NCBI RefSeq assembly: GCF_008919445.1 | Contig: NZ_VSLG01000007.1 | Span: forward strand, 65,454 to 129,453 | Length of the DNA: 64,000 bases | Direction: 5' to 3' | From: Serinicoccus kebangsaanensis | Lineage (GTDB): Bacteria; Actinomycetota; Actinomycetes; Actinomycetales; Dermatophilaceae | Shown here: positions 169 to 62,600 of the stretch, piece by piece | Position numbering within the stretch: the first letter of the stretch is position 1 | Layout of the letters: each line of letters starts with the position of its first letter | The notes under the pieces: generated by a model | Databases searched by the model: none | What the model was told of the DNA's origin: nothing | What the model saw: the letters and a program-made list of their open reading frames with translations, nothing else | Made by a program: the position numbers and the translations under genes

Positions 169-1491
169 TCAGGCGATCTCGGCCGCGCTCTGCTCGATCG
201 CCGCCACCGCGTGCTCCACCGCCTCGTCGTCGTGGGCCGCGGAGACGAACCACGCCTCGAAGCAGCTCGGGGGCAGGTGCACCCCCCGGCGGAGCATGGC
301 GTGGAAGAAGCGGCCGAAGGTGGCGGCGTCCTGGTCCTTCGCGTCGGCGTAGGAGGTGACGGCACCCTCGCGGAAGAAGACGCTGAACATCGACCCCGCC
401 CACTGGATCCGGTGCGGTATGCCGTGGGCCGTGAAGGCGTCGGTGACGGCGGCGGCGAGCGCCTCGCTGACCTCGTCCAGGCGTGCGTACACCTCGTCCG
501 TGCAGCCCTGGAGCGTCGCCAGCCCGGCCGCCGCGGCGATCGGGTTCCCCGACAGCGTGCCCGCCTGGTAGACCGGACCCTCCGGGGCCAGCTGGGCCAT
601 CAGCTCGGCGCGGCCGCCGAACGCCGCGGCGGGGAAGCCACCACCCATGACCTTGCCGAAGGTGAAGAGGTCGGGCGCGCCGCCGGCCGGCTCGCCCTCC
701 AGCCCGAACCAGCCGGACGGTGAGCAGCGGAACCCCGTCATCACCTCGTCGCTGACGAGCAGGGCGCCGTGCTCCGCGGTCACCCGGCGCAACGCGTCGG
801 TGAAGCCGGGCGCCGGAGGCACCACCCCCATGTTGCCGGCCGCGGCCTCGGTGATCACCGCCGCGATCTCGCCGCCCCGCTCGGCGAAGGTCGCCTCCAG
901 CGCGGCCTCGTCGTTGTAGGGGAGCACGATCGTCTCCCCCGCCGCGCTGGCGGGGACACCGGGGCTGTCGGGCAGGCCGAAGGTCGCGACCCCGGACCCG
1001 GCGGAGGCGAGCAGGGCGTCGACGTGCCCGTGGTAGCAGCCGGCGAACTTCACCACCACCGATCGGCCGGTGACCCCTCGGGCCAGCCGGATCGCGCTCA
1101 TCGTCGCCTCCGTCCCGGAGCTGACCAGACGCACCTGCTCGACCGGATCCACCCGACGCACGATCTCCTCGGCCAGGAGGACCTCCCGCGCGGTGGGCAT
1201 ACCGAAGGAGAAGCCGTCGTCGGCCGCCGCGTCCACGGCCGCGCGCACGTCCGGGTGCCCGTGCCCCAGGATCATCGGCCCCCAGGAGCACACCAGGTCG
1301 AGGTAGCGGCGGCCGTCCGCGTCCCAGAGCCACGGCCCCTGCGCCCGCTCCATGAACCGCGGTGTGCCCCCGACCGACCGGAACGCCCGCACCGGTGAGT
1401 TCACCCCGCCCGGGATGACCTGCCTGGCCCGACCCAGCAGCTGGTCGGAGGCGGCGGCGTCGTCGGGGTAGGCAGGGTCAGGGATGCTCAT
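169..1491 (-). CDS. hemL: Glutamate-1-semialdehyde 2,1-aminomutase
   Basis: A PLP enzyme that converts glutamate-1-semialdehyde to 5-aminolevulinate, the second step of C5 tetrapyrrole synthesis, directly after HemA. The 440-residue protein has the usual family length. It shows the N-terminal [10 protein letters not shown] signature, [10 protein letters not shown] for cofactor phosphate binding, and FGKVMGGG with the PLP lysine near residue 275. The ATG start is preceded by TAGGCT (reverse strand, 1499-1504) with a 7-nt gap and no ribosome site, suggesting a leaderless transcript separate from the upstream hem operon. It is the last gene of the heme cluster, 45 nt after the MarR gene. Confidence 0.97.
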
Positions 1492-1536
1492 GCGACCCAG
1501 CCTAGGTGCACCCCTGCGGTCGGCCGCGGGGCCCGG

Positions 1537-2010
1537 TCAGAGCGCGTCCGTCGCCTCGTCGTCGCGGTGCCGCGTCGCCAGGATCACCCGGCGCAGGGCG
1601 GCGCCGTGCTCGACCAGCTCCTCCCGGCTCAGGTGGTCCAGCAGGGCCTGCCGCACGCTCTCCACGTGCACCGGCGCGAGCCGCTCCAGCTCCTGCCGAC
1701 CGGTCGCCGTCAGCTGGAGCACCACCCCACGTCGGTCCTGCGGGGTGCGCACCCGCTCCACCCAGCCGCGCTTCTCCAGCCGGGTGGCGGTGTGGCTGAC
1801 CCGGCTGCGCGACTGCACCACCAGGTGCGCGAGCTCGGCCATCCGCATCCGCCCGCCAGGAGCCTCGGAGACCATGCTCATCAGCTCGTACTCCCCCAGC
1901 GAGACGCCGTAGGCGTCCAGCGCCTCCTCCATCACCAGGGTGATGAGGTGCGAGGCCCGCAGGATCGAGCGCCAGGCGCGCTGCTCCTCGTCGTCGAGCC
2001 AGCGGACCAT
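1537..2010 (-). CDS. MarR-family transcriptional regulator
   Basis: A 157-residue winged-helix regulator with the full MarR fold. A dimerisation helix covers the first 35 residues, the HTH runs through residues 50-85, and the wing carries TPQDRRG before the LTATGRQELE helix typical of the family. The ATG lies 4 nt after the hemB stop, so it is probably co-transcribed with and translationally linked to the heme genes, and it sits between hemB and hemL. A role in heme, oxidative or metal control of the cluster is inferred from position only. No operator was recognised, and the ligand cannot be read from sequence. Confidence 0.9.
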   Translation of the reverse strand: MVRWLDDEEQRAWRSILRASHLITLVMEEALDAYGVSLGEYELMSMVSEAPGGRMRMAELAHLVVQSRSRVSHTATRLEKRGWVERVRTPQDRRGVVLQLTATGRQELERLAPVHVESVRQALLDHLSREELVEHGAALRRVILATRHRDDEATDAL

Positions 2011-2014: not shown

Positions 2015-3007
2015 TCACCCTCCCAGCAGCCGGGCGGCGGCGGTCGCGTAGTAGGTGAGCAGCACCTGCGCGCCGGCCCGGCGGATCGACGTCAATGTCT
2101 CCATCACCATACGGTCCCGGTCGAGCAGACCCTGGGAGGCGGCCGCCTCGATCATGGCGTACTCGCCACTGACCTGGTATGCCGCGACCGGCACGTCGGC
2201 GACGGCGGCCACGTCGGAGAGCACGTCGAGGTAGGGCAGCGCCGGCTTGACCATCACCAGGTCCGCCCCCTCCTCGAGGTCGAGGCGGAGCTCGCGCAGG
2301 CTCTCCGTGCGGTTCGCCGGGTCCTGCTGGTAGGTCTGGCGGTCCCCGACGAGGGTGGAGGCGACGGCCTCGCGGAACGGCCCGTAGAAGCCGCTGGCGT
2401 ACTTGGCGGTGTAGGCGAGCACGGCGACGTCCTGGTGGCCCGCGGAGTCCAGGGCCTCGCGCACCACCCGGACCTGGCCGTCCATCATGCCGCTGGGCCC
2501 GACGACGTGCGCGCCGGCCTCGGCCTGGGCCACGGCCAGCTGCGCGTAGACCTCCAGGGTGGCGTCGTTGTCGACCCGCCCCGCCTGGTCGAGCACCCCG
2601 CAGTGGCCGTGGTCGGTGAACTCGTCGAGGCAGAGGTCGCTCATGAGCACGGTCTGGTCCCCGACCTCGTCGCGCAACGACCGCAGCGCGGCGTTGAGCA
2701 CCCCGTCGGGCCGCAGCCCGACGCTCCCGGACGAGTCCTTGTCCTCGGCCCGCGGCACGCCGAAGACCATGACGCCACCGACCCCGGCGGCCACCGCGTC
2801 CCGCACCGCCCGGACCGCGCTGGAGGTCGTGTGCTGCACGACACCAGGCATCGACCCGATCGGCTGCGGTTCCGCGATCCCGTCCCGGACGAAGATCGGG
2901 AGGACCAGCTCGGCCGGGTGCAACCGCGTCTGGGCCACCAGGCGGCGCAGCGCGGGGGTGGTCCGCAGCCGACGCGGGCGCTCGTGCGGGCCGGTGCGGA
3001 CCGTCAC
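2015..3007 (-). CDS. hemB: Delta-aminolevulinic acid dehydratase (porphobilinogen synthase)
   Basis: Condenses two 5-aminolevulinate molecules to porphobilinogen in the cytosol. At 330 residues the length is normal. It has the two active-site lysine regions, [14 protein letters not shown] and [10 protein letters not shown], and the LPIFVRDG start region. The GTG start at 3007 overlaps the hemD stop as GTGA. This start was chosen because translation from it begins just before the conserved [14 protein letters not shown] segment, whereas the open frame extends upstream without homology. It is the fifth gene of the rex-hemA-hemC-hemD-hemB operon. Confidence 0.96.
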
Positions 3008-4644
3008 CGGCGCGACCGCGGGCGCCGCGGTGCCGGCTTGCGCTGGCTCGGGCGCACGAACTCCTCGTCGTCGGACCGCGCCTGCTCGGCCAGGCCGCGG
3101 GCGTGCTCGGCCAGGGCATCCACCAGGCTGGTCGAGCTGGGCTCGGGCGCCACCACGTCGACCCGCAGACCGTGCTCCTCGGCGGCCTTGGCGGTCGCCG
3201 GGCCGATGCAGGCGACCACCGTGTTGGGGTGCGGCTTGCCGGCGATGCCGACCAGGTTGCGGACGGTGGAGGAGGAGGTGAAGCAGACGGCGTCGAAGGC
3301 ACCGCCCTTGATCGCCTCCCGCACCTCGGCGGCCGGGGGCGCGGCCCGGACCGTGCGGTATGCCGTCACGTCGTCCACCTCCCAGCCCATGTCCTGCAGG
3401 CCGGCCACCAGGGTGTCGGTGGCGATGTCCGCACGCGGCAGGAAGACCCGGTTGATCGGGTCGAGCACCTCGTCGAAGGGGGGCCAGGAGTCGAGCAGCC
3501 CGCGAGCGGACTGCTCGCCGTCGGGGACCAGGTCCGGCTCGAGGCCCCACTCCCGCAGGGCGTCGGCCGTGACCCCGCCGACGGCGGCCAGCTTCAGCCC
3601 CGCGAAGGCACGCGCGTCCAGCCCGAGCGCCTCGAACTTCTCACGCACCGCGCGCACGGCGTTGACCGACGTGAAGCCGATCCACTCGTAGCGCCCGGTG
3701 ACCAGCCCCCGGACCGCCCGGTCCATCTGCTGGGGGGTGCGCGGAGGCTCGACGCTGATCGTCGGGACGACCGAGCCGGTGGCGCCGTAGCCGGCGATCC
3801 GGTCGGTCATCGGGCCGGACTGCTCCTTGGTCCGCGGCACCAGGATGGACCAGCCGAACAGCGGTTTCGACTCCCACCAGGACAGCTCGGCGCGCATCTG
3901 GACCGGGCGCCCGACGACGGCCACGGTGACCGCGGCCAGGGCCCCGGAGTCGTGCTCGAGGGCCTCGTGCAGGGTGGTGACCAGCGTCTCCTGGGCGTTG
4001 GTCGTGCCCTTCCCGGTGAGCGCGGTGGGGGTGTCGGCCTGCCGGCCGGCGTCCGCGAGCTGGCGCAGCGCGCGGTGGATGCGGTCGTGCTCCCCGAGCA
4101 CCACGACGGTGACGTCCTCGGAGACCGAGTGCGACCAGTCCACCCCGGTGTCGGTCGCGCTGACGACGTGGACCTGGCCGCTGTGACCGTCCGGCAGCAT
4201 CCCGGCGTAGGCGGGGATCGCCCAGGCGGCGCTGACGCCGGGCACGATCTCGAAGGCCACACCCGCGTCGTGGCAGGCGCGGGCCTCCTCGGCCATGGTG
4301 CTCCCGGAGGCGTCGTCCGCGATCAGGCGCACGACCAGGTGGGTGGCGTCGTCGAACTTCGAGGCCGTCCGGACGAGGAGCTTCGCCCGCGCCGCGGCGC
4401 TCAGTGCGGGGCCGTCCTCACCGCGCACGGTGCGCACGACCTCGACCTCGTCCCGGGCCCACGCGCGCACGTCCGCCTCGCTGTGGGCGGCGTCGACCAC
4501 CACGACGTCGGCGATCGCCAGATAGTCCCGTGCCCGGACGGTCAGGAGCCCCGGGTCACCGGGGCCGGCGCCCACGAAGGCGACGCGCGCGGCGGCAGGC
4601 CCGGCGACAGGGGTCAGGTGGATAGGGGCGGCGTCAGTGCTCAC
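3004..4644 (-). CDS. hemD: Fused uroporphyrin methyltransferase-like / uroporphyrinogen-III synthase
   Basis: A 546-residue two-domain protein of the actinobacterial HemD type. Residues about 18-245 resemble uroporphyrinogen-III C-methyltransferase ([13 protein letters not shown] near the start, [16 protein letters not shown] later). Residues about 285-520 are uroporphyrinogen-III synthase, which cyclises hydroxymethylbilane ([23 protein letters not shown]). The junction [10 protein letters not shown] matches the M. tuberculosis fusion from memory. The methyltransferase half looks degenerate: after the AYAG segment it reads MLPDGHSG where active enzymes usually have GIPLTHR. Its activity is therefore uncertain. 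The GTG start overlaps the hemC stop as GTGA. The basic C-terminal tail ends in arginines and prolines. Confidence 0.93.
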
Positions 4645-6999: not shown

Positions 7000-7664
7000 G
7001 AGACCCCTTCCACACGCGCGTCCGAGACCGCGACCTCCCGCTGGTGCTGGTGGAAGGTGAGGATCTGCAGCTCGGTGGCGAGGTCCACCCGCCGCACGTC
7101 CACGTCCGGCGGGACCTGGAGCACGCCGGGGCTGAAGGTCAGGATCGACCGGACCCCGAGGCTCACCAAGACGTCGGCCACCTCCTGCGCCGCCTCGGGC
7201 GGGGTGGTGATGACGCCGACCGAGACCGGGCCGTCGGTGCGCAGCTCGCTCAGCGGCTGCACCGGCATACCCTCCACGACGCTGCCGACCACGGCCGGGT
7301 CGTTGTCGGCGAGGGCGACGACCTGGAAACCACGGGTCGCCAGGCCGTCGTAGCTGGCCAGCGCCGTGCCCAGGTTGCCCATGCCGACGATGACGACCGG
7401 CCAGTCACGGCTGAGCCCGAGCTCGGCGGACACCTGCTCGGCGAGCCGCACGACGTCGTAGCCCACGCCGCGGACACCGTAGGAGCCGAGGTAGGAGAGG
7501 TCCTTGCGCACCTGGGCCGAGCGCACCCCGGCCAGCTCCGCCAGCTCCTCGCTGGAGATCGACCCGCGACCCGCGTCGGCGAGCAGCGTCAGGGCCTGGA
7601 GATAGCCCGGGAGCCTGCCGACGGTGGCCTCTGGCACCCCGCGCCGGTTCGACTCGGCCATCAC
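6996..7664 (-). CDS. rex: Redox-sensing transcriptional repressor Rex
   Basis: A dimeric repressor that releases DNA when NADH binds. Residues about 15-85 form the winged helix (SSEELAELAGVRSAQVRKDLSYLGSYG). A Rossmann domain follows, with the dinucleotide motif VIVGMGNLG near residue 95. The C-terminal swap helix ends the 222-residue protein. Two starts are adjacent, GTG at 7664 and ATG at 7661. An AAAGGAG ribosome site lies 11 nt before the GTG, so either is possible. No copy of the classic Rex operator (TTGTGAA-N6-TTCACAA) was found in the 140 bases upstream, so autoregulation is not supported by what is visible. Confidence 0.95.
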   Translation of the reverse strand: MMAESNRRGVPEATVGRLPGYLQALTLLADAGRGSISSEELAELAGVRSAQVRKDLSYLGSYGVRGVGYDVVRLAEQVSAELGLSRDWPVVIVGMGNLGTALASYDGLATRGFQVVALADNDPAVVGSVVEGMPVQPLSELRTDGPVSVGVITTPPEAAQEVADVLVSLGVRSILTFSPGVLQVPPDVDVRRVDLATELQILTFHQHQREVAVSDARVEGVS

Positions 7665-7804: not shown

Positions 7805-8095
7805 TCAACGTCGCCGCGCGGCACCCCGTCGCGCGGCGAGCGCCGCCCGCACCTCCCCGGCGTCGGTCCGCCACCTCGCCACGGCCTCACCGTCCATCAG
7901 GAGCACCGGGACCTCGGTCGACCAACGGGCGTGCTCCGCCTCGCTCATGGCGCCCGCGACGCGTTCGGCGTCGATGTCGCGCACGGTCACCTCGAGCCGC
8001 TGACCCTGCAGCACCTGCAGCATCTCGTCGCACAGGTGGCACCCGGGCCGGGACAGCATCTCCACCTGCGGCACATGCCTGCTCCACCACGGCAT
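7805..8095 (-). CDS. Glutaredoxin-family (DUF836-like) thiol protein
   Basis: A 96-residue thioredoxin-fold protein with the redox-type motif SRPGCHLCDEM at residues 15-25 and the cis-proline region EVPVLLMDGE. Small CxxC proteins of this type occur near the hem and bS22 genes in many actinobacteria. Disulfide reduction or glutaredoxin-like transfer is expected from the family, but the substrate is unknown. The ATG lies inside a GGTATGCC octamer and is preceded by AGGAG with 5-nt spacing. The last ten residues are alanine- and arginine-rich. Confidence 0.85.
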   Translation of the reverse strand: MPWWSRHVPQVEMLSRPGCHLCDEMLQVLQGQRLEVTVRDIDAERVAGAMSEAEHARWSTEVPVLLMDGEAVARWRTDAGEVRAALAARRGAARRR

Positions 8096-8179
8096 ACCGG
8101 CTCCTCTCGGGGACGACGATGGCGCCCTCCCTACGGGGCGGGCGCCATGGTCAGGGCTTCGGCGGGATCGCCGAGCCGG

Positions 8180-8838: not shown

Positions 8839-10026
8839 TCAGTCGAGGTACGGGTCGAGGCCCCACCCCGGGAAGCACGCCCGCCGCGTGGCCATGATCG
8901 CGCCGTCCACCGGGTCGTCCAGGTCGTAGCCGTCGTCCCAGCGGCCGTACCGGATCTCCCGCCCGTCCCGGTCGCCCATGCGCCGCGGCGCCGGCGCGCC
9001 GTAGCTCTGCTCGACGTGCTGCTGCCAGGAGCCCGGCGTCTCCAGCAGCGGGTCGACCGGACGCCCGGTGACGACGCCGATGAGGTGGGTCCAGGCGCGC
9101 GGGACCACCTCGATGAGCTCGTAACCGCCGCCCCCCAGACTGACCCAGCGACCGCCGGCCAGGTCGTCGGCCAGCTCACGCACCCAGCCGTAGGCGACGG
9201 CCAGCGCGTCCATCGACACGGACAGGTGGGCCAGCGGGTCGGCGTAGTGGCAGTCGCAGCCGTGCTGGCTCACCACGATCTGCGGGTCGAACGCGCGGGC
9301 GAGGGTCGGCACGACGGCCTGGTATGCCCGCAGCCACCCCTCGTCCCCGGTGCCGGGAGGCAGCGCGATGTTGACCGCGGTGTCCGGCGCCTTCGGGCCA
9401 CCGGTGTCCCCCGGGAAGCCGGTGCCGGGGAACAGCGCCCGACCGGTCTCGTGCACGGAGACCGTCATCACCCGGGGCTCGTTCCAGAAGCACCGCTCGA
9501 CGCCGTCCCCGTGGTGGACGTCCAGGTCGAGGTAGAGCACCCGCTCGGCCCCGGAGTCCAGCAGGTGCTGGATCCCCACGGCGACGTCGTTGTAGACGCA
9601 GAAGCCGGAGGCCGTCTGGGGCATGGCGTGGTGCAGCCCCCCGGCGATGTTGCACGCGCGGTCGACCTCCCCCGTCCACACCGCCCGGCAGGCGTCGACC
9701 GTCGCGCCGACCGCGAGCGAGGTGGCCTCGTGCATACCGGCGAAGGCGGGGGTGTCCTCGGTGCCGACCCCGTGCCGTCCGGTGGCCGACCGCGGGTCGG
9801 CGGACACCGCGCGCACCGTCTCGACCAGGTCGCGGGTGTGGACCGACAGCAGCTCGGCCTCGGTCGCGGCCCTCGCCGGCCGGACCTGGACGTCGTCGTG
9901 GTCCAGCAGACCCAGGTCCCGGGACAGGCGGTGGGTGAGGTCGAGCCGGCTCGGGTGCATCGGGTGGCCGGGGCCGAAGTCGTAGGTGGAGTACCGCTCG
10001 TCCCACATCACCCAGGAGGACGTCAT
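8839..10026 (-). CDS. AcuC-type histone-deacetylase-family protein
   Basis: A 395-residue arginase/deacetylase-fold enzyme, probably a zinc-dependent protein deacetylase like AcuC, which acts on acetyl-CoA synthetase. It shows the catalytic histidine pair in GGLHHAMPQ, the zinc ligands in YLDLDVHHGDG, the third ligand region in HGCDCHYADPLAH, and the conserved SLGGGGYE near the C-terminus. The ATG is preceded by TAGCGT with a 6-nt gap and no ribosome site, suggesting a leaderless mRNA. It lies upstream of the HTH gene. No acs gene is visible, so the substrate is not known. Confidence 0.9.
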   Translation of the reverse strand: MTSSWVMWDERYSTYDFGPGHPMHPSRLDLTHRLSRDLGLLDHDDVQVRPARAATEAELLSVHTRDLVETVRAVSADPRSATGRHGVGTEDTPAFAGMHEATSLAVGATVDACRAVWTGEVDRACNIAGGLHHAMPQTASGFCVYNDVAVGIQHLLDSGAERVLYLDLDVHHGDGVERCFWNEPRVMTVSVHETGRALFPGTGFPGDTGGPKAPDTAVNIALPPGTGDEGWLRAYQAVVPTLARAFDPQIVVSQHGCDCHYADPLAHLSVSMDALAVAYGWVRELADDLAGGRWVSLGGGGYELIEVVPRAWTHLIGVVTGRPVDPLLETPGSWQQHVEQSYGAPAPRRMGDRDGREIRYGRWDDGYDLDDPVDGAIMATRRACFPGWGLDPYLD

Positions 10027-11475: not shown

Positions 11476-12441
11476 TCAGCCCTTGGTCGCCAGGCCGCGC
11501 AGGAAGAAGGACAGGTTGGCCGGCCGCTCGGCCATCCGACGCACCAGGTAGCCGTACCAGTCCTCGCCGTAGGGCAGGTAGACGCGCATCCGCGCACCGG
11601 CCCCCGCCAGCCGGCGCTGCTCGTCCGGGCGGATCCCGAGCAGCATCTGGAACTCGTAGGAGTCGCTCTCCCGCTGCGCCTTGTCCGCCAGGACCGTCGC
11701 GATCTCGACCAGCCGCGGGTCGTGCGTGGCGATCATCGGGTAGCCCTCGCCGCCGAGCAGGATCTTCAGGCAGCGGACGTAGGCCTTGTCGACGTCCTCC
11801 TTGTCCTGGAAGGCGACGGACTCGGGCTGCTTGTAGGCGCCCTTGCACAGCCGGATCCGGGACCCCTCGTGCGCGAGGTCCCGGCAGTCCTGCTCGGTCC
11901 GGTGCAGGTATGCCTGCAGCGCCACCCCCACCCAGGGCCAGTCCTGGCGCAGCTCGGCCAGCGCCGAGAGCGTGGGGTCGGTCGTCGTGTGGTCCTCCAT
12001 GTCCAGGGTGACCGTCGTGCCCGCGTTGGCGGCCGCCTGGCAGATGGCCCGGGCGTTCTCCAGCGCGATCGCGTGGCCGTCGCGGCCCAGGAACTGGCCG
12101 AGGGCGGACAGCTTCAGGCTCACCTCGACGGCACCGTCCTGGGTGAGCCCCGACTCGGACAGCGCCGTGAGGAGCTCCAGGTAGGCGTCGCGCGTCGCGG
12201 CCGCCTGGGACGGGTCGAGCGTGTCCTCGCCGAGGTAGTCGATGGTCACCTGGCGCCGGGTGTCGACCAGCTCCCCCGCCACCCGCACCGCGTCCCGCGT
12301 GGCGTCCCCTGCGACGAAGCGCTTCACGACGTCGCGACTCACCGGGGCCTGCTCGATCACCTGACGCAGCGTGGTGTTGCGACTCATGCCGAGCAGGGTC
12401 TGGCGCATCAGGGCCGAGGGATTGAGGTCAGCGAGCTCCAT
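11476..12441 (-). CDS. Proline dehydrogenase
   Basis: An FAD-dependent monofunctional enzyme that oxidises proline to pyrroline-5-carboxylate, passing electrons to the quinone pool. The 321-residue TIM barrel carries TLDMEDHT, RLCKGAYKQPESVAFQ and the C-terminal YLPYGEDWYGYLVRRMAERP motif that binds substrate carboxylate. The ATG has TAGCCT 6 nt upstream and no ribosome site, so the mRNA is probably leaderless. Co-transcription with proC is notable because the two enzymes run in opposite directions. Confidence 0.94.
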   Translation of the reverse strand: MELADLNPSALMRQTLLGMSRNTTLRQVIEQAPVSRDVVKRFVAGDATRDAVRVAGELVDTRRQVTIDYLGEDTLDPSQAAATRDAYLELLTALSESGLTQDGAVEVSLKLSALGQFLGRDGHAIALENARAICQAAANAGTTVTLDMEDHTTTDPTLSALAELRQDWPWVGVALQAYLHRTEQDCRDLAHEGSRIRLCKGAYKQPESVAFQDKEDVDKAYVRCLKILLGGEGYPMIATHDPRLVEIATVLADKAQRESDSYEFQMLLGIRPDEQRRLAGAGARMRVYLPYGEDWYGYLVRRMAERPANLSFFLRGLATKG

Positions 12442-12473: not shown

Positions 12474-13289
12474 TCACGCCGGGCGGGCACCTGGTCGGTC
12501 GTGCTGTCCGAGGTGCTCACGGGCGAAGGCCAGCGACTCGGCGAGCGCCTCCTCACGCGCCTCGGGCTTCATCTTGCGCGTGCCGACCTCGAGGCTGACG
12601 ACGCCGTGGAAGTCCGTCTCGACCAGGTGCTCCAGCACCTCCCGGCAGCGCTGGTTCCCCCGCCCGGGCACCAGGTGCTCGTCCTTGAACGAGCCGAAGG
12701 AGTCCCCGAGATGCACGTGCCGGATGCGCGGGCCCAGGTCGCGGGCCATCTGCAGGGCGTCCTCACCGGCGGTCGCGGCGTGGCTGATGTCGAAGGTGAC
12801 GTCGGTGTAGGGGAACTCGCGCGGGTCCGGCCCCGGCAGGTAGGCCTGCATCGCGGAGGCGGACGACCCCGCGCGCCAGGGGAACATGTTCTCCACCGCG
12901 ATCGGGACACCCCACCGCTCCTGCCGCTCGGCGACCCCCTCGACGAAGCCCTCGGCATACCCGCGCTGCCACCGGAACGGCGGGTGCACGACCACGCACT
13001 GGGCGTCGACCTCCACCGCGAGATCCAGCGCCCGCTCGATCTTGCCCCACGGCTCCCACCCCCACAGCCGCTGCGCCAGCAGCAGGGTCGGGGCGTGGAT
13101 GGCACCGATCTCCAGCCCGTGCAGCCGGGCCAGCGCGCTCAGCGCCCCGCTCTCCTGGGTGACCGGGTCGGTCCAGACCATGATCTCGACGCCGTCGTAG
13201 CCCAGACGCTCCGCGAGGTCGAAGGCGTAGGCGGCGTTCTCGGGGTAGACCGAGGACGTCGACAGGTGGACCGGGATGCGCTCGCTCAT
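12474..13289 (-). CDS. Sugar phosphate isomerase/epimerase family TIM-barrel protein
   Basis: A 271-residue xylose-isomerase-like barrel (AP endonuclease 2 family). Metal-binding type motifs are visible: LGYDGVEIMVW near the start, IAVENMFPW with the conserved glutamate, DISHAATAG, RHVHLGDSFG, and GVVSLEVGTRK at the end. The actinobacterial homologue next to ppx and proC (Rv0498-like) has no established substrate. The ATG overlaps the ppx stop as ATGA, so it is the second gene of a ppx operon. Confidence 0.85.
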   Translation of the reverse strand: MSERIPVHLSTSSVYPENAAYAFDLAERLGYDGVEIMVWTDPVTQESGALSALARLHGLEIGAIHAPTLLLAQRLWGWEPWGKIERALDLAVEVDAQCVVVHPPFRWQRGYAEGFVEGVAERQERWGVPIAVENMFPWRAGSSASAMQAYLPGPDPREFPYTDVTFDISHAATAGEDALQMARDLGPRIRHVHLGDSFGSFKDEHLVPGRGNQRCREVLEHLVETDFHGVVSLEVGTRKMKPEAREEALAESLAFAREHLGQHDRPGARPA

Positions 13290-14297: not shown

Positions 14298-15713
14298 GTG
14301 GCAAAGGCGAGCAGAGCGGCATACCGCTGCACGGAGTGCGGCTGGCAGGGGATCAAGTGGGTGGGTCGCTGCCCCGAGTGCCAGGCGTGGGGCACGGTCT
14401 CGGAGGTCGGGTCCCGCACGGGGGTGCGCACCAGCGCGGTCTCCCCGAGCCGCCCGGCGGTGCCGATCGAGGCGGTCGACGCGGAGGCCGCGCAGGCGCG
14501 CCGGACCGGGGTCGCCGAGTTCGACCGGGTGCTGGGCGGCGGCATCGTGCCGGGTGCCGTCGTGCTCATGGCCGGGGAGCCCGGGATCGGCAAGTCGACG
14601 CTGGCCCTCGACGTCGCCGCCCGCGCGGCCCGCGAGGGCAGCTCGGTGCTCTACGTCTCCGGGGAGGAGTCCGCGGCCCAGGTGAAGCTGCGCGCCGAGC
14701 GCATCGGCGCGGTGGCCGACACCCTCTTCCTCGCCGCCGAGACCGACCTGGCGACGATCCTGGGACAGGTCGAGCAGACCGACCCCGACCTGCTGGTGGT
14801 CGACTCGGTCCAGACCGTCGCGAGCGCGGACGTCGAGGGTGCGCCCGGCAACGTGAGCCAGGTGCGCGAGGTGGCGGCGGCGCTGATCCAGGCGGCCAAG
14901 ACCCGGGGGACGTCGGCGATCCTCATCGGCCACGTCACCAAGGACGGCGGCATCGCCGGGCCGCGGCTGCTGGAGCACCTGGTGGACGTCGTGGTGGGCT
15001 TCGAGGGCGAGCAGCACAGCCGGCTCCGCCTGGTGCGCGCGGTGAAGAACCGCTTCGGCCCGACCGACGAGGTCGGCTGCTTCGACCTGGGTGACTCCGG
15101 CATCACCGGTCTCGCGGACCCGAGCGGCTTGTTCCTGTCGAGCCGGGACCGCCCCGTCCCCGGCACCTGCGTCACGGTGACGCTCGAGGGCCGTCGGCCC
15201 TTGGTCGCCGAGGTGCAGGCCCTGGTCAGCGAGGCCGTCGGCGGCTCGGCGCGGCGGACCACCAGCGGGATCGACCCGTCCCGGCTGGCGATGGTGCTGG
15301 CCGTGCTCGGCCAGCGCGGTGGCGTGCCGCTGGCCAGGGACGACTGCTACGCCGCGACCGTGGGAGGGGTCCGGCTGTCCGAGCCGGCCGCCGACCTGGC
15401 CCTGGCGCTCGCCCTCGCCAGCGCCAAGGCCGACCTCGCCCTGCCGGTGAGCACGATCGCGGTCGGCGAGGTCGGCCTGTCCGGCGATCTCCGCCCGGTC
15501 ACCGGCGCCCCGCGCCGGTTGGCCGAGGCGGCCCGCATCGGCTTCACCGAGGCGGTCATCCCGGTCGGCTCGCTCAGCGAGGGTCGCCCACCGGAGACGA
15601 TGCGGGTGCACGAGGTCGCCACCCTGAGCGATGCCGTCGCGCTCGTCCTCGCCGCGGCCGGTGCGACCGCCCGCCAGGCGGGCGCCGGCGCCCCCCTGGT
15701 CAAGAATCCATAA
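14298..15713 (+). CDS. radA: DNA repair protein RadA
   Basis: A RecA-like helicase that promotes branch migration during recombination. The N-terminal zinc finger is CTECGWQG and CPECQAWG. Walker A is GEPGIGKST near residue 95, followed by the KNRFG RadA motif around residue 250 and a C-terminal Lon-like domain. The length is 471 residues. The GTG at 14298 was chosen because conserved sequence (AYRCTECGW) starts ten codons later and TACGCT sits 6 nt upstream, suggesting a leaderless mRNA. It is divergent from ppx and is followed by disA, as in many Gram-positives. Confidence 0.95.
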   Translation: MAKASRAAYRCTECGWQGIKWVGRCPECQAWGTVSEVGSRTGVRTSAVSPSRPAVPIEAVDAEAAQARRTGVAEFDRVLGGGIVPGAVVLMAGEPGIGKSTLALDVAARAAREGSSVLYVSGEESAAQVKLRAERIGAVADTLFLAAETDLATILGQVEQTDPDLLVVDSVQTVASADVEGAPGNVSQVREVAAALIQAAKTRGTSAILIGHVTKDGGIAGPRLLEHLVDVVVGFEGEQHSRLRLVRAVKNRFGPTDEVGCFDLGDSGITGLADPSGLFLSSRDRPVPGTCVTVTLEGRRPLVAEVQALVSEAVGGSARRTTSGIDPSRLAMVLAVLGQRGGVPLARDDCYAATVGGVRLSEPAADLALALALASAKADLALPVSTIAVGEVGLSGDLRPVTGAPRRLAEAARIGFTEAVIPVGSLSEGRPPETMRVHEVATLSDAVALVLAAAGATARQAGAGAPLVKNP

Positions 15714-17855: not shown

Positions 17856-17924
17856 CCCGAGCGCCAGGCAACCTTTGCCGGGGTCGGTCCGGTAGGGGCA
17901 GGTGAGGAACCGAGGAGGTATGCC

Positions 17925-22763: not shown

Positions 22764-22794
22764 ACCGAGGATGCTACGTCACCCTCGGTATGCC
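22759..22794. terminator. Hairpin with 12-bp stem built from GGCATACC / GGTATGCC
   Basis: GGCATACCGAGG (22759-22770) and CCTCGGTATGCC (22783-22794) form a perfect 12-bp stem with a 12-nt loop, 19 bases beyond the nlpC stop. It is the likely terminator of the nlpC transcript. The arm contains the start codon of the next gene, and the loop holds its -10-like box (ATGCTA, reverse TAGCAT). Confidence 0.7.
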
Positions 22795-24439: not shown

Positions 24440-24460
24440 GGGTGCGAGGTATGCCTGCGC

Positions 24461-28109: not shown

Positions 28110-28168
28110 ACCGCAGCCTGACCCGAATCCCGAGCCGCGCGCAGAACCTGTCCACAGGGGGTGCGCCG

Positions 28169-41733: not shown

Positions 41734-42234
41734 TCAGCCGTAGGCCAGGTCCCCGTCGGCGACGCCGTCGTCATCGTCGTCGTGCTCGGTCGGGGGGATC
41801 CGGCACCAGTCCTGCCCGACGTAGCCCGCCACGGACAGCACCAGGGCCGCCACCGCGTGCACCACGCCCCACACCAGCTGCACCCGCTCGCTGGCCACGT
41901 CCGCGTTCGGCAGGTGGACCAGCGCGTTCGCGGCATACCACCCGAGCAGGGCGGCGCCACCCAGCGCCGCGGCCTGGGCACCCACGACCGTGCCGCGACC
42001 CCGCTGCGGGCTGGGTCGCAGGGTCCCCCTGCCGAGCAGGTAGCGCCGGATCTGCCAGCACATGACCAGCACCAGCAGGGTCACCGCCACGAGCGGCACC
42101 AGGCCGATCCAGGAGATCACCGGGTAGCCGCCGCCGAGCGAGCGCACCACCTGGAGCAGCAACCAGCTGGCCATGCCGGCCAGCACCGCCACGATCGCGC
42201 CGGTCCCGACGCGCACCCCGTCCACGCCCCTCAT
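41734..42234 (-). CDS. DUF3180 membrane protein of the folate cluster
   Basis: A 166-residue protein with four hydrophobic segments (for example AIVAVLAGMASWLLLQVV and PLVAVTLLVLVMCW) and an acidic C-terminal tail rich in aspartate. DUF3180 genes follow folK in many actinobacteria (Rv3605c position), but their function is unknown. The ATG overlaps the folB-folK stop (ATGA), so it is the last gene of the ftsH-folE-folP-folBK transcript. Confidence 0.88.
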   Translation of the reverse strand: MRGVDGVRVGTGAIVAVLAGMASWLLLQVVRSLGGGYPVISWIGLVPLVAVTLLVLVMCWQIRRYLLGRGTLRPSPQRGRGTVVGAQAAALGGAALLGWYAANALVHLPNADVASERVQLVWGVVHAVAALVLSVAGYVGQDWCRIPPTEHDDDDDGVADGDLAYG

Positions 42235-48400: not shown

Positions 48401-49399
48401 CTACGCCTCGCGCCGCAGCCACACCCGGTCTCCGGCCCGCCCCGCGCGGACCCCGCCGGGCAGGTGCAGCGGGCCCTGCCCGGACCAGTCGGACACCAGC
48501 GCGTCGACGGCCAGGAGGTGCTCGCTGGACAGGTCCGTCCCCGGGCTGCCCGCCTCCCGCGCCAGCCGTCGCCACAGCCGGGTCCGCACGGCCGGGGCGA
48601 GCCGGCGCAGCGCGTGGACGTCCCACGGCTGATCCCCCATCTCCCGGTATGCCTGCTCCGCCAGGTCGTCGAGGGCGTCGGCGTCGCCGCGGAGCAGGTC
48701 GGCCGAGCGCGCCAGGTTGGCCACCAGGCCGGGGCCGAGCACGCTGTCGAGCTCGGTCAGCGCACGGCGCGCCCGCACCCGGGCGAAGTGCTCGTCCTGG
48801 TTGTGCGGGTCGGCGAACGGCGTGACCCCGAGCGCGTCGCAGCAGGCGGCCGTCTGGACCCGGGTGAGCCCCAGCAGAGGGCGGCCGAGGACGACGTCAC
48901 CGGTCAGCACCCGGTGGTCCGGCATCCCGGCCAGGGAGCGCGCGCCGGACCCGCGCGCCAGGCCGAGCAGCACCTGCTCGGCCTGGTCGTCCCGCGTGTG
49001 GCCGAGCAGCACCGCGGCCGCCCCCAGCCGGTCCGCCCAGAAGGCGAGTGCGGCATACCTGGCCTCGCGCGCGTCGGCCTCCGGGCCGGCCGAGGTCGCC
49101 CGCACCCCGACCCGGGTCACCTCGACCGAGGCGCCGGCAGGCAGCAGCGACCGGCACCGGTCGGCCGCGACCTGCGCGACCTCGGCCGAGCCCGGCTGCA
49201 GGTCGTGGTCGACGACGACGGCCCCGACCCGCAGCCCCCGCCGCGGGCCCTCGAACCCGGTGGCCGCCGCCAGGGCGAGCGAGTCCGCACCCCCGGAGCA
49301 GGCCACCAGCACCAGGGCGTCGGGACCCAGCCCGGCCCGGTCGACCCAGCGACGGACGGCGACCCGTGCCGCCGCCACCGCAGGTGCCGGCCCCGGCAT
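48401..49399 (-). CDS. tilS: tRNA(Ile)-lysidine synthase
   Basis: Converts the wobble cytidine of tRNA(Ile)(CAU) to lysidine so that it reads AUA codons. The ATP pyrophosphatase P-loop is VLVACSGGADSLALA near residue 32. HTRDDQAEQVLLGLARGSG and GRPLLGLTR follow. The 332-residue form lacks the long C-terminal domains of E. coli TilS. It is notable here because AUA codons are rare in this genome but occur within the GGCATACC octamer. Confidence 0.95.
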   Translation of the reverse strand: MPGPAPAVAAARVAVRRWVDRAGLGPDALVLVACSGGADSLALAAATGFEGPRRGLRVGAVVVDHDLQPGSAEVAQVAADRCRSLLPAGASVEVTRVGVRATSAGPEADAREARYAALAFWADRLGAAAVLLGHTRDDQAEQVLLGLARGSGARSLAGMPDHRVLTGDVVLGRPLLGLTRVQTAACCDALGVTPFADPHNQDEHFARVRARRALTELDSVLGPGLVANLARSADLLRGDADALDDLAEQAYREMGDQPWDVHALRRLAPAVRTRLWRRLAREAGSPGTDLSSEHLLAVDALVSDWSGQGPLHLPGGVRAGRAGDRVWLRREA

Positions 49400-50545: not shown

Positions 50546-50635
50546 CCCCCGACGGTATGCCGTGGCCCGCCGCTGCGGCGACCCGGGCCGTCCGGCGGGC
50601 GACGGCGGGTGGTCACCCCGCCACGTCCGTCCCGG

Positions 50636-52117
50636 CTAGCACCCGCACCGGGCGAGCTCGGCGACGACCTCGTCCAGCACCGACGCCGCCTCGATCGCGG
50701 CCGAACCCTCCTCGATGTCGTCGGCGGTGAGGGCATACACCAGCAGCCGGCCGTCCCGGCTGACCACCGTCCCGGCGAGCGAGCTGACCCCGGGCAGGGA
50801 GCCGGTCTTGGCGCGAGCGGTGCCCACCGCGGGGTCGTGCCGGTCCAGGTGGAAGCGGGTCGCGAGGGTGCCGGTGTAGCCGGCGATCGGCAGCCCTCCC
50901 GCGGCCAGCACCTCCTGCAGCTCCGGGTGGGACCCGTCCGCGCCCGCCACGAGCACGTCGGCGACGACCTGCACCGGGATGAGCGTGCCGTCGGACAGGC
51001 CGCTGGCGTCCACGATCTGCACCCCGGCCATGTCCATCCCGTAGTCCTCGGCGATGGTCTGCCGGATCCACGTCGTGACCGCCTCCTGGTCGGCGCTCCC
51101 GCCGTCGGCGGTCGCGGCCTGCCGGGCGAGCTGCTCCACCATCGCGTTGTCGCTGGTCGCGAGGGCCAGGGCCAGCACGTCGCGGGCCGCCGCGGACTCG
51201 ACGCTGGCCAGCTCGGTCGCGTCCTGCGGCGCCTGCACCTCGTCCGCCCGGGTGTCCCCGTCCCCGGCGCCGACGACCTCGACACCCTCCTCGGCCAGCG
51301 CGTCCCGGAAGACCCGCGCCACCTGCTGCTCCGGCGAGGTCGGCGAGGGGTTGAACGGGGTGGCCCGGTCGCCGGACCGCCCGAGCTGCACGATCCGACC
51401 GCTCCACCCCTCGCGCACCCAGTGCTCGGACCAGGTCGGCATCTCGTGCGGGCCGGGCACGTGGGACAGGTCGAGGCTCACCCGCACCGGGGTCTCGGCG
51501 TCGGTCAGCGCCGCCGCGGTCTGTGCCGCCAGGTCGGCGATCCCGGCGTGCCCGGCGACGGCCTCGGGGTCCCCCGCCCCGTCGGCGAGCAGCATGTCGC
51601 CGCCCGCGACGAGGACCACCTCGTCCGGCTCCGCGCCGGACACCACCCTCGTGGTGAAGGTGTGGTCGCCGTCCAGACCGGTGACGATCGCGGCGGCCGC
51701 CAGCAGCTTGGTCGTCGAGGCCGGCGTCACCAGTCGCCCCGCGTTGCGGTCGGCCAGCGCCTCCCCCGTCAGCGCGTCCCGGATGGCGACGGCACGGCGG
51801 TTGGTACCCCCGAGCCAGGTGCTGGCGAGCTCGTCGTCGATCTCGTCGGCGAGGCGCTCCGGGTCGGGCACCGGGCCGGCGGACACCGGACCCAGCACAC
51901 CCGTCGGGGCGGACACGCGGGGACGCACCTCCGCCGGGCTGGTGGGCGCCTCGGCGGTGCTCTCCACCGCGTCCGAGGTGGAGGTGGTCGCGTCGTCGTC
52001 GACCGCGCGCGGGACGGCGACCGAGGGCACCGCGGCCCCGCTCAGCAGCGCCACCGCGGAGACCGCCGCCAGGGCATACCGTGGTCGGCGTCGGTGCGTG
52101 CGGCGCGGGTGCGTCAC
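50636..52117 (-). CDS. dacB: D-alanyl-D-alanine carboxypeptidase/endopeptidase (PBP4 type)
   Basis: A class C penicillin-binding protein that trims or opens peptidoglycan. The 493-residue protein has a basic start and a membrane segment or signal (YALAAVSAVALLSGAAVP), an acidic serine/threonine-rich stalk, the active-site serine in TPASTTKLLAAA, the SDN triad in ATSDNAMVEQ and the KTG motif in RAKTGSLPG. The GTG start has GGAGG 12 nt upstream. It is divergent from ppa, as in M. tuberculosis. Confidence 0.94.
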   Translation of the reverse strand: MTHPRRTHRRRPRYALAAVSAVALLSGAAVPSVAVPRAVDDDATTSTSDAVESTAEAPTSPAEVRPRVSAPTGVLGPVSAGPVPDPERLADEIDDELASTWLGGTNRRAVAIRDALTGEALADRNAGRLVTPASTTKLLAAAAIVTGLDGDHTFTTRVVSGAEPDEVVLVAGGDMLLADGAGDPEAVAGHAGIADLAAQTAAALTDAETPVRVSLDLSHVPGPHEMPTWSEHWVREGWSGRIVQLGRSGDRATPFNPSPTSPEQQVARVFRDALAEEGVEVVGAGDGDTRADEVQAPQDATELASVESAAARDVLALALATSDNAMVEQLARQAATADGGSADQEAVTTWIRQTIAEDYGMDMAGVQIVDASGLSDGTLIPVQVVADVLVAGADGSHPELQEVLAAGGLPIAGYTGTLATRFHLDRHDPAVGTARAKTGSLPGVSSLAGTVVSRDGRLLVYALTADDIEEGSAAIEAASVLDEVVAELARCGC

Positions 52118-57484: not shown

Positions 57485-58140
57485 CGGCGCTCCAGCAGCT
57501 CGCGGACGCGCTCCCGGACGGCCGACTCGATCGCCGGCTGCGGCTCCTGCGCGTCGAGGACGAGGTAGCGCTCCGGCTGCTGCCCGGCCAGGTCCAGGAA
57601 GCCGCGGCGCACCCGGAGGTGGAAGTCGTCGCCCTCCCGCTCCACCCGGTCGTGCGTCGCGCCACGACGCAGCCGGCCCTGCTCGGGACTGACGTCGAGC
57701 ACCACGGTCAGGTCGGGGAGCAGCCCCTCCACGGCCCAGAGCGAGAGATCCCGCACCTCCCCGTGGCCGAGCTCCCGGGCGGCGCCCTGGTAGGCCACGG
57801 AGGAGTCGAGGTAGCGGTCCGTGATGACGATCTCGCCCGCCTCGAGCGCCGGCCGGACCACGGTGGCGACGTGGTGCGCGCGGTCCGCGGCGAAGATCAG
57901 CGCCTCCGCCCGCGCGGTGACCGACCCGTCCTCCCCGTGGAGCACCAGCTCGCGCAGCGAGCGCCCCAGCCCGGTCCCGCCGGGCTCCCGGGTGCGGCGG
58001 ACGGCATACCCCTGCTCTCCCAGCCAGCGCGCCAGCGCGTCGGCCTGGGTCGACTTCCCCGCCCCGTCCCCGCCCTCGACCGCGAGGAACAGCCCCCGCC
58101 TGCCACCTCGGGGGGCGTCGGCGGGCGGCTGGTCGGTCAC
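57481..58140 (-). CDS. tmk: Thymidylate kinase
   Basis: Phosphorylates dTMP to dTDP. The P-loop is LAVEGGDGAGKSTQADAL, followed by RTREPGGTGLG and the DRYLDSSVAYQGAAR substrate motif. The length is 219 residues with about 14 unconserved N-terminal residues. TAGGCT lies 6 nt upstream of the GTG start (leaderless pattern). It is coupled to holB, a common actinobacterial pair. Confidence 0.96.
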   Translation of the reverse strand: MTDQPPADAPRGGRRGLFLAVEGGDGAGKSTQADALARWLGEQGYAVRRTREPGGTGLGRSLRELVLHGEDGSVTARAEALIFAADRAHHVATVVRPALEAGEIVITDRYLDSSVAYQGAARELGHGEVRDLSLWAVEGLLPDLTVVLDVSPEQGRLRRGATHDRVEREGDDFHLRVRRGFLDLAGQQPERYLVLDAQEPQPAIESAVRERVRELLERR

Positions 58141-59574: not shown

Positions 59575-59654
59575 GACAGACAGTATGCCCGCACCCGCCG
59601 CAGATGACGCAGCCCGGCCGCGCAGGGGATCGCGACCGGGCTGCGGGCCTGGGG

Positions 59655-62600
59655 CTACTCCAGCGTGCGCAGCAGGTCGAGCACGTCGTCGTCGATGGCC
59701 GCGTCCCCTCCGAGCACGTGGACCACCCCGGGCTCGAGCCGCTCCAGCGCGGTCCACGTCACGGGGGGCACAGAGTCCTGCCGAACCAGCAGCATGGGCG
59801 CGTCCTGCGCGCCCGCCACGGCGGCGCCGGCGAGGGCGTCCGGCCAGTTCTGCCCGCTCGCGACGAACACGTCCGCCGCCGTCGGGTGGTCCTCCGCGAG
59901 GAGCGCGGCGGTGTGGAAGCGGTCGTCACCGGCGACCCGGGTCACCTCGCCGTAGGCGCCCAACGCGATGGCGACGCTCTCCTCGACGGCCCCCGTGCCC
60001 CCGAGCAGCACGATCTGCTCGACGCCCAGGTCGGTGAGGGCCTGCGCCGTCGCCGCGGGCACCGAGCCCGGGCGGACCAGCAGCACGGGTGCGTCCACGG
60101 CACCCGCGCGGGCGGCACCCGCCAGGGCGTCCGGGTAGTTCAGCCCGGTCGCGACGTAGGCCGTCCCGGCGGACCCGAACTCGGCCGCCACACGGGCCGC
60201 CGTGCCGTACCGGTCGGTGCCGGCCAACCGTCTCGCCGGGGCCTGCGCCGCGTCCGCGGCAGCCTCCACGACCGCGTCCTCGACCGCGCCGTCGCCGCCC
60301 AGCACGACGACCTCGGCCGGGTTGAGCCGTTGCAGCTCGGCGGAGGTCACGGCCGGGAGCACGTCCGGCTCGGTCAGCAGCACCGGGACCTCCACGCTCC
60401 CGGCGAGCGCCGCGCCGGCGAGCGCGTCCGGGAAGTCCGCCCCGGTGGACAGCAGCACCGACTCGACACCGGGTGCATACCGCTGGGAGAGCTCGACGGC
60501 CGTGCCGTAGCGGTCCTCCCCGGCGATCCGCACCACCTCCGGGTGGATCGGGCCGGGGTCCGGCTCGCACCCGGCGTCCAGCAGGGCGAAGTCGGTCTCC
60601 ACCACCTGGCCGCGCAGCGGGTCCACCAGGGCCTGCTCCGGCCGGTAGCCACCCGCCGACGCGATCAGCTCCAGCTCACCGACACGGGTGTCGATCCACC
60701 GGGCATACCGGCCCTCGACGTCGGTGACCCAGCGCCACCGGGGGTCCTCCATCCGCGTCGGCGCCGCGTCGACCGTGGCGCCCGGCAGCGGCGATCCGGC
60801 ACCCTCGCAGTCCGCACCGGTGACCAGGCCGGTCAGCTTGCCCCACGTGGCGGGCGGGAGCACGGTCATCTCCACCTCGGTGGTCGGAGCCGTGCCGGGC
60901 ATGCCGCCCCCGGCCTCGATCCCGGCGGTGTAGGTGCCCGGCTGCGCCACCTCGCCGGACGTGGTGACCTCCACCGTCGCCGACTCACCGGCGGCGAGGG
61001 ACAGCTCGGTCTGGCTCAGCGAGAGCCAGGGCACGTCCGCGCCCGCGTCGTCGCAGAGGTCGTAGCCCGGCAGCAGCTCGACCACGTCGCTGAAGCCCTG
61101 GTCGCTCTGGCCTCCGACGAGGGCGAATCCGCAGGCGCCCGCACCGCGGAAGGACGGAGTGTTGGGGTTGGGCAGGTCGCTCCACGTGTCGGCCGCCGGG
61201 TCGTAGGCGAAGGCGTCGTTCGTCACGGCACCCGCCTGCAGCCCGCCGGTGAGGACGAGCTGGTCGTTGGCTCCGGCGTAGGCCGCGCCCCACGCGTCCA
61301 CGGGGGCGTCGGCGACCTGGGTCCACGAGTCGGCGTCCGGGTCGTAGGCGTAGGTCGCGGAGGTGGAGACCTCGCCGTCACCCACGCCGCCGGCGCAGAT
61401 CACCCGGCCGTCGATCCCGGCGCAGGAGGGGTAGGCGATCGGCTGCGGGTAGTCGGCGAGCGTCGTCCAGGAGTCGGTCGCCGGGTCGTAGGCGGCCGTG
61501 GTCGCCGAGGTCGGGTCGCACATGTCGGTGGTGCACCCGCCGACCGAGTAGAGCAGACCGCCGAGGGTCGCCTGACCGGCCCACGTCACCGCGACGGGCG
61601 CGTCCGCCAGCTGGGTCCACTCGTCCGCCTCCGGCGCGTAGGCGTAGGTCCCGGTCTGCGCGACCCCGCTGCTGTCCCACCCACCGGCGGCCACGATCCT
61701 CCCGTCGAGCGCTCCGACGGTGGGCGCCATCAGCGGCAGCGGCAGGTCCGCGACCTGCACCCACTCCATCGTCGCCGGGTCGTAGCGGTGGGTGGCCGGC
61801 GTGGGTTCGTTGCCGTCGAAGCCGCCGAAGGTGTACCAGGTGCCGTCGAGGTTCACCACGCCGTTGTCCACGATCGGCGTCGGCAGCGGCGTGAGCTCGG
61901 TCCACGGCTCCTCGTGCGGCCGGCGGTCGGCGGGCCCGTCCTCGGACCGCTGCGGCGACAGGTATGCGCCCACGAACGGGTCGACGTCCGCCGTCCGGGT
62001 GGGGGCCCCTGCGGCCTGCCCCTCGCCCAGGGTCGTGACGCGGCTCCCGTCGGCGCGCAGCAGCTCCACGCCGCCGCGCACCTCCTCCAGGGTCACCTCG
62101 GCGGGACCGGTGCCGGTGTTGGTCACGGTCAGCTCCGCGGTCTCCGCGTCGTCGCCGAGCGTGACCTCGGTCTCGATCCGCTGCGGGTCCAGCTCGAGCA
62201 GGCCCCCGTCGAGGACGAAGTCGGCCCGCACGGCGCCGCCACCGACCACGGCGACGTCCTGGGCGGCCGGCGCGAACCCGCGGGCGGAGGCCTCGAACGG
62301 GTGGTCCCCGGACACGCTGCTGAACAGCCAGTAGAAGCCGTCCTCCTGGCCCTCGTCGGCCGGGGTCGCCCGGCTGACCCCGGTGTCCTCCGGGACGTCG
62401 AGGCTGGTGATCGTCGCACCGGTGACGGCAGACCCGTCGGCGGTGGCGGAGACGTTGCCCACGACATACCCCCCGTCACCGACGGGCACGCAGGAGCGGC
62501 TGCCGACGAAGACGTCGTCCACCTCCCAGAACCAGGCGTAGAAGGCGTCGTAGTAGTGCCACCGCACCCGGACCTGGCTCTCCCCCGCCGCCATCGGCAG

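Follow-up and report, generated by a model that had tools for sequence, protein, structure and literature searches.

The octamer in the window

The DNA analysed here is a window of 64,000 nucleotides from Serinicoccus kebangsaanensis (GCF_008919445.1, contig NZ_VSLG01000007.1, positions 65,454 to 129,453), and the subject of this report is the octamer GGTATGCC, which is strongly over-represented in it. The window contains 33 exact matches, 15 on the plus and 18 on the minus strand, and the position and strand of every one agree with the first-pass annotation of this DNA. The density is about one copy per 2 kb, on both strands, within and between genes. Genes were called with custom codon-score scripts and not with a standard gene finder. 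Unless otherwise described, each line below is an exact match to GGTATGCC.

416..423, plus, in a called gene
1196..1203, minus, in a called gene
2176..2183, plus, in a called gene
3357..3364, plus, in a called gene
7264..7271, minus, in a called gene
8091..8098, minus, outside called genes
9321..9328, plus, in a called gene
11907..11914, plus, in a called gene
12954..12961, minus, in a called gene
14318..14325, minus, outside called genes
16981..16988, plus, in a called gene
17917..17924, plus, outside called genes
22759..22794, hairpin with GGTATGCC arms (22759-22766 minus, 22787-22794 plus), past the stop of the minus-strand gene 22813-23952, a terminator-like position
24448..24455, plus, outside called genes
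27104..27188, 85-bp repeat copy 1 with GGTATGCC at 27124-27131 (minus) and 27180-27187 (plus), just past the stop of the minus-strand gene 27198-27986
28105..28112, minus, outside called genes
28163..28247, 85-bp repeat copy 2 with GGTATGCC at 28239-28246 (plus), just past the stop of the minus-strand gene 28248-29129
29699..29706, minus, in a called gene
29850..29857, plus, in a called gene
33903..33910, plus, in a called gene
36852..36859, minus, in a called gene
38879..38886, minus, in a called gene
39691..39698, minus, in a called gene
41932..41939, minus, in a called gene
43760..43767, minus, in a called gene
48646..48653, plus, in a called gene
49052..49059, minus, in a called gene
50554..50561, plus, outside called genes
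52073..52080, minus, outside called genes
58003..58010, minus, in a called gene
60702..60709, minus, in a called gene

The number of copies is far above that given by base composition. In 100 dinucleotide-preserving shuffles of the window the octamer had a mean count of 0.68 and a maximum of 3, and a third-order Markov model gives an expectation of 1.13 for the window, compared with the 33 seen, and of 8.86 for 399 kb elsewhere in the genome, where 177 copies were found. A maximal-order Markov model gives 32.9 copies in the window, a value that is uninformative because the motif itself fills the sub-words of the model. The whole genome (3,503,838 bases in 37 contigs) contains 1,764 copies (894 + 870) compared with 10 (4 + 6) for the reversed word. 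Further comparisons were made in samples, which are parts of genomes comprising 399 kb of our genome, 400 kb of the relative G007, and 20–140 kb of other genomes; GGTATGCC is the top over-represented octamer in both of the two largest. The over-representation claimed in the first-pass annotation is therefore right and larger than noted: of the two checks proposed there, the third-order expectation lies far from the observed count and the enrichment extends to the rest of the genome, and the absence of overall strand bias described for the window is seen genome-wide as well.

Three inverted pairs in the window (22759–22794, 27104–27188, and 28163–28247) lie directly past stop codons. The hairpin at 22759–22794 is very stable, with a folding energy of −38.4 kcal/mol and a z-score of −8.5. 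The other two pairs are imperfect repeat copies that are 85% identical and carry the word near their ends; the left arm of copy 2 has the minus-strand GTATGCC with T replacing the first G. Their folds have z-scores of −2.1 (copy 1) and −2.7 (copy 2), and the octamer arms pair in the best fold of copy 1 but not in that of copy 2. The first-pass annotation had placed the octamer in the arms of this hairpin and of a 79-bp repeat, of which the hairpin and the pairing in copy 1 stand, the pairing in copy 2 does not, and the repeat itself is real with a length of 85 bp. No further full copy of the repeat was present in the searched samples.

Shape, placement, and conservation of the word

GGTATGCC is non-palindromic, as it is not its own reverse complement. 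Its core is GTATGCC, which in this genus is usually preceded by G, and the other sampled genera have GTATGCC as their common core, usually followed by G. In 438 contexts from our genome and G007, the base directly after the octamer is G in 56%, C in 31%, T in 12%, and A in 1%, compared with a background of about 14% A, indicating a one-sided flank preference. The second base on the 3′ side is T in 34% and the sixth is C in 56% of these contexts, with no strong preference at the base 5′ of the octamer. Several single-base variants at outer positions remain more frequent than their reversed controls, including TGTATGCC (29 versus 3) and GGTATGTC (18 versus 0) in our sample, and the fifth-position variants GGTACGCC (5 versus 9) and GGTAGGCC (29 versus 36) are not. 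The 10-mer GGTATGCCGT of our genome was counted 43 times compared with 0.53 expected. It has ATGCCGT in common with the Neisseria uptake sequence quoted in the consulted part of PMC5031613, an overlap that is probably a coincidence.

The preference for intergenic DNA varies between samples. In the window 12 of 33 sites touch intergenic DNA compared with 3.2 expected, and in G007 44 of 228 do so compared with 21.8, with 23 of 177 in the 399-kb sample of our genome (20.6 expected by length) and 5/55 to 30/108 in five other samples, corresponding to 0.9 to 2.6 times expectation. Inside genes the word is seen in both orientations and in several frames by its placement in the gene calls, in agreement with the first-pass annotation, and the remark made there on rare codons is borne out by the finding that 118 of the 240 TAT tyrosine codons in our 399-kb sample lie within GTATGCC. 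The corresponding fractions are 140/209 in G007, 41/65 in G166, 43/152 in G188, and 40/213 in G034. The strands are balanced in seven samples (93/84 and 120/108 in the two largest), the largest departure in any bin being 25/33. In five of eight samples the copies are spaced close to randomly, and in the other three they are more regular than random placement would give (coefficient of variation 0.80–0.84, P 0.006–0.038). Inverted GTATGCC pairs within 80 bp occur at chance level in our 399-kb sample, with 6 found and about 5.8 expected, indicating that the role as a hairpin arm, for which a check of intergenic hairpins had been proposed, is not general. Pooled over the eight samples, inverted core pairs within this distance are mildly frequent (47 versus 32.7 expected). 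Same-orientation core pairs within 80 bp are fourfold rarer than expected in the same samples (8 versus 32.7).

Conservation was assessed in 245 reciprocal-best gene pairs between our genome (sample and window) and G007, with a mean protein identity of 84.6%. Sites of our genome are exact in G007 in 90 of 131 cases, compared with 18 of 62 for SSTATSSS control words, so that the octamer is kept at the same places in a relative, a comparison that the first-pass annotation had called for. In the reverse direction 90 of 150 G007 sites are exact in our genome compared with 18 of 69 controls. In-frame TAT codons of our genome remain TAT in G007 in 40 of 52 cases inside the motif and in 69 of 126 outside it.

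The word is scarce in the foreign DNA of two prophages. In genomes G002 and G018, comEC is split by approximately 40 kb of DNA. Matches to PHROGs in the G002 insert include terminase, tape measure, and major head protein, and its integrase is identified only as a similar gene at the same place; the G018 insert has matches to terminase, portal, tape measure, and an integrase that also matches a DNA-invertase family. The G002 prophage contains 1 copy of the octamer in 40.2 kb compared with 15 in 39.8 kb of flanks, and the G018 prophage 2 copies in 40.5 kb compared with 5 in a flank of 19.5 kb. The inserts (loci L177–L180, G002 C1:1161189-1201313; loci L181–L183, G018 C46 ~68543-108972) are two similar temperate phages within comEC of two species of the genus. 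A 12-bp repeat is found at both ends of the G002 prophage, and no end repeat of 9 bp or more was found for the G018 prophage in the compared windows. Insertion of phages in a DNA-uptake gene suggests a conflict with transformation. The ComEC domain match also falls into two or three pieces in G183, G124, G150, G157, G170, G190, G106, G118, and G202, which are possible further insertions or contig breaks.

Distribution of the word and of alternative words in the family

In the NCBI taxonomy Serinicoccus and Ornithinimicrobium belong to the Ornithinimicrobiaceae of the Micrococcales. Our genome falls in the group of these two genera, and among its named ComEC matches those with the highest identity are from Serinicoccus. 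The family surveyed here comprises 186 genomes of 53 genera, is broader than the NCBI Ornithinimicrobiaceae, and is taken by us to be the Dermatophilaceae of GTDB. The 31 genomes of our own genus contain 38 to 2,180 copies of GGTATGCC, and the wider core GTATGCCG ranges from 7 (G149) to 4,724 (G155) copies across the 186 genomes. In 362 genomes from 19 other families, all of the same order, the count is at most 180 and mostly within threefold of the reversed control. Within this sampling, high copy numbers are restricted to the one family. GTATGCCG is also scarce in single members of genera that are otherwise rich in it, with 19 copies in G140 (compared with 3,681 and 1,062 in its genus), 37 in G065, and 50 in G023. 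Loss of comEC was rejected as the cause of these low counts, as 180 of 186 genomes have comEC irrespective of their word, and an apparent comEC truncation in G023 was set aside because the match extends to near the end of a contig of 8504 bases.

Other words, here called tags together with GTATGCCG, are abundant in some genera of the family that are poor in GTATGCCG. Whole genera share one tag, and the tags form clade-specific dialects. CGAAGGGG is found in all 16 genomes of genus g52 and all 3 of g61 (19 genomes) with 1,198–3,180 copies, compared with at most 396 in the other 167 genomes. GGATGCCG has 2,099–4,480 copies in 7 genomes of g34, g73, and g40, and 10 genomes belonging to 6 genera have more than 900 copies of GTACGNCG per Mb, with a maximum of 8,819 copies in a genome. 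Genomes were classified by thresholds that we set per Mb at 150 for GTATGCCG, 450 for GGATGCCG, 800 for GTACGNCG, and 300 for CGAAGGGG, in a table compiled by hand from the counts and then rechecked; GGATGCCG was counted in 183 of the 186 genomes, with G005, G009, and G020 treated as negative. This classification gives one tag to 137 genomes, two to G092 and G093, and none to 47. More than one tag is found in 2 of 53 genera, where 6.1 would be expected (P 0.004, without correction for phylogeny). Mixed intermediates exist in G092 and G093, with 1,217 and 1,189 copies of GTATGCCG as well as 2,195 and 2,099 of GGATGCCG, and G090 and G091 of the same genus have mainly GGATGCCG. Genus g67 is also mixed, G168 and G171 having 625 and 836 copies of GTATGCCG and 2,588 and 2,794 of GTACGNCG (reversed 881 and 1,127). 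Several GTATGCCG-rich genomes have fewer copies of GTACGNCG than of its reversed form (171–243 versus 739–912 in G006, G010, and G015), as if a neighbouring dialect were avoided. In G139 (g57; L221–L222, L219), CGATGCGG is present in 36 copies in 60 kb compared with 3 reversed and is a possible further tag. No clear tag was seen in 40-kb samples of G151, G206, G077, G067, G078, and G094, in which weak tags could be missed.

A FastTree phylogeny of 20 genomes was built from four concatenated proteins, one of them ComEC and the other three presumably leucyl-tRNA synthetase, a sirtuin, and a LysR-type regulator. In this tree the CGAAGGGG genomes G120 and G149 are sister lineages (support 1.0), so transfer of a shared CGAAGGGG receptor need not be invoked. 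The GTACGNCG genome G145 stands beside the GTATGNCG-type G087 (0.998), the GTACGNCG genome G140 beside the GTATGCCG-weak G142 (1.0), and the GGATGCCG genome G201 beside the GTATGCCG genome G095 (1.0). As G145 and G140 lie apart, each next to a GTATG genome, the GTACG form occurs in two separate places. These neighbours are arranged as repeated one-letter shifts between tags would give.

Uptake genes and receptor candidates

The genome contains genes of a putative DNA-uptake machine, namely comEA, comEC, tadA, and tadE. Its comEA scores over the cut-off of NCBIfam model TIGR00426 and under that of TIGR01259, and its comEC over that of TIGR00360 and just under that of TIGR00361. A Tad cluster with a TadA-type ATPase, a TadE minor pilin (tadE over the NCBIfam cut-off), and a neighbouring helicase lies on the contig of the window, approximately 17 kb beyond its right end; its other members are, we assume, Flp, TadB, TadC, and CpaE. 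Across the family, 180 of the 186 genomes have a ComEC domain; a TadA-type ATPase was matched in 184, in 168 of them over the curated cut-off. The type IVa N-methyl pilin motif, a 27-position motif that can be missed, is detected in 4 of 186 genomes.

Several candidate causes of the tag specificity were set aside. Type IVa pilins are an unlikely receptor given the rarity of matches to their motif, and gain or loss of the Tad ATPase does not fit its near-universal presence. A search for a receptor whose similarity follows the tag was negative for 12 of 14 G140 genes, which are closer to those of its own genus (G141 and G142) than to those of the same-tag G145; of the remaining two, one is equal and one, of TadA type, is marginally closer to G145 (0.52 versus 0.49), a difference that was not counted as evidence. 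In a comparison of Tad clusters (L201–L204, L220), those from four tag-rich genomes of our genus were without a gene that is present in the tag-poor G023 and in most other sampled family members. This gene is presumably CpaE-like.

Interpretation and alternative explanations

We consider it marginally probable that the octamer is a DNA-uptake-sequence-like self-tag, with dialects, of a ComEA/ComEC/Tad-pilus system. This reading is the best fit to the pattern and the gene content, because the word is found in many copies, is asymmetric and strand-neutral, stays in place between species, is scarce in the two prophages, and differs between clades in dialects. The first-pass annotation had described a dispersed signal resembling an uptake sequence, a methylation site, or a protein-binding site; the dispersed signal, selected or driven and without overall strand bias, is upheld, and of its three options the uptake type fits best. 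The 1,764 copies, which in our sample lie mostly within genes, make a classical sparse protein-binding site unlikely. In the proposed mechanism a surface receptor of the Tad/ComEA machine would prefer DNA bearing the word, imported tagged fragments would replace homologous DNA, and the biased uptake would drive the number of tags up throughout the genome. A shift in receptor preference would let the tag drift along, giving dialects from GTATGCCG to GGATGCCG and possibly to GTACGNCG, and in two sister genera such a shift may have yielded the unrelated word CGAAGGGG. The broader proposal is that uptake tags recognized by a Tad-pilus uptake system mark the genomes of an entire family of Gram-positive actinobacteria, with dialects that repeatedly shift by one letter and with a replacement by CGAAGGGG in two sister genera. 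We put it forward tentatively, with a likelihood just short of even.

A number of observations weigh against the uptake reading. The genes comEC and tadA are equally frequent in genomes without the tag, so that the tag cannot be predicted from the machinery, and among the com and tad genes none tracked a shared tag and no candidate receptor was found. Placement of inverted pairs at gene ends, common in known uptake sequences, is not general here. Conservation is not uniformly supportive, as the TAT advantage is smaller from G007 to our genome (41/55 inside the motif versus 68/106 outside), synonymous divergence at fourfold sites is not lower near tags (0.378 at 15–100 bp and 0.388 beyond 2 kb), and within 79 genes divergence does not depend on distance to the tag (P 0.28). 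The exclusivity of the tags depends on the thresholds, since many of the 47 genomes classed as having none are moderately enriched in a word; all 12 genomes of g2, in this class, have 1,257–2,022 copies of GTACGNCG compared with 423–717 reversed. GTACGNCG has the palindrome CGTACG at its centre and could differ in nature from the other tags. In an 80-kb sample of G087 (L193–L196) two variants lean in opposite directions, GTATGCCG with strand counts of 17/38 and GTATGACG with 27/8, although GTATG overall is even there (80/74) and GTATGCCG is balanced in the whole G087 genome (1,267/1,275). No uptake experiment for these organisms was found in the literature consulted.

The main rival is a motif like HIP1, the highly iterated palindrome of cyanobacteria, tied to methylation or repair, in which a methyltransferase or maintenance protein would act on the word and a change of enzyme would change it; we regard it as unlikely but by no means negligible. 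Like HIP1 and its alternates, the word lies mostly within genes, is conserved, and is replaced in some clades, and the CGTACG centre of GTACGNCG would suit this explanation. According to the available part of PMC4390886, HIP1 appears to be replaced by alternate words in some cyanobacterial genomes, generally with a matching methyltransferase, which likewise counts against an uptake function. However, such a motif is predicted to be a palindrome, and GTATGCCG, GGATGCCG, and CGAAGGGG are non-palindromic with one-sided flanks. Enzymes for asymmetric sites usually differ from strain to strain, whereas the tags are common to whole genera. A site for a nucleoid, segregation, or other DNA-binding protein distributed over the genome is quite improbable. 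It would account for the dispersal and for the more even spacing in three of eight samples, but the other five show roughly random spacing, and the turnover of words between clades appears faster than expected of nucleoid proteins.

A Chi-like site, at which a nuclease of recombination or repair would be directed and self DNA recognized when breaks are mended, is disfavoured and very improbable. Such a site would also be an asymmetric, over-represented octamer that is clade-specific and scarce in the two prophages, and the uneven strands of the two G087 variants could be taken as a further point for it. Classical Chi sites favour the leading strand. No overall strand bias was seen in the seven samples, with replichore ends unmapped and most bins having their genes on one strand, the G087 variants lean oppositely with GTATG even, and up to 1,356 copies of GTATGCCG occur per Mb. 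That composition, codon usage, or a mobile repeat produced the enrichment as an artefact can practically be dismissed. Composition and codon bias are ruled out by the shuffles, the reversed-word control (10 versus 1,764), and the Markov models, the contexts of the copies are otherwise unrelated, and the sites are conserved in place. The only point for an artefact is the 85-bp repeat pair; it accounts for 3 of the 33 copies in the window, and the searched samples contained no other complete copy of it.

If the uptake reading is true, these bacteria would have an uptake-sequence system outside the Neisseriaceae and Pasteurellaceae and outside hosts with type IVa pili. The system would span many species and mixed intermediates and comprise at least three tags, perhaps four, so that the origin and switching of uptake specificity would become addressable, and the survey provides a ready list of species pairs for studying specificity switches. 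The tags would also allow the acceptance of DNA by these bacteria to be predicted and would aid the building of genetic tools.

Comparison with known systems

The available part of PMC5031613 names two Gram-negative families, the Neisseriaceae and Pasteurellaceae, as those with sequence-specific uptake. Among open-licence papers no description of the present octamers or of any uptake sequence in actinobacteria was found, and the phrase "uptake sequence" did not occur in the text of PMC4322843, PMC12849477, and PMC8467076. The DNA uptake sequence (DUS) of the Neisseriaceae has eight dialects and thousands of copies (PMC3630211, as excerpted), with one site per 400–1100 bp and a low density in islands (PMC7371117, as excerpted). 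The tags described here resemble the DUS in being short asymmetric words with thousands of copies and clade dialects, in their low density in islands, here two prophages, and in the graded importance of their positions. They differ in having an actinobacterial host with a Tad cluster in place of type IVa pili (motif in 4 of 186 genomes), a putative uptake with no ComP-type receptor known here, and an unrelated word in two genera. The DUS core CTG is absent from the tags, and ATGCCGT occurs in both, by chance or not. The uptake signal sequence of the Pasteurellaceae is similarly a word of about 9 bp in hundreds to thousands of copies (PMC5031613, same part), with another word, host, and machinery. 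The HIPs of cyanobacteria are likewise iterated octamers with other words in some genomes (PMC4390886, same part) but are palindromic, whereas three of the four tags are not and only the CGTACG-centred tag of other genera qualifies. There is also a likeness in gene content to the Flp/Tad-dependent transformation of the actinobacterium Micrococcus luteus, which has comEA, comEC, and tad genes and, according to the available part of PMC4322843, requires Flp pili and comEC for transformation.

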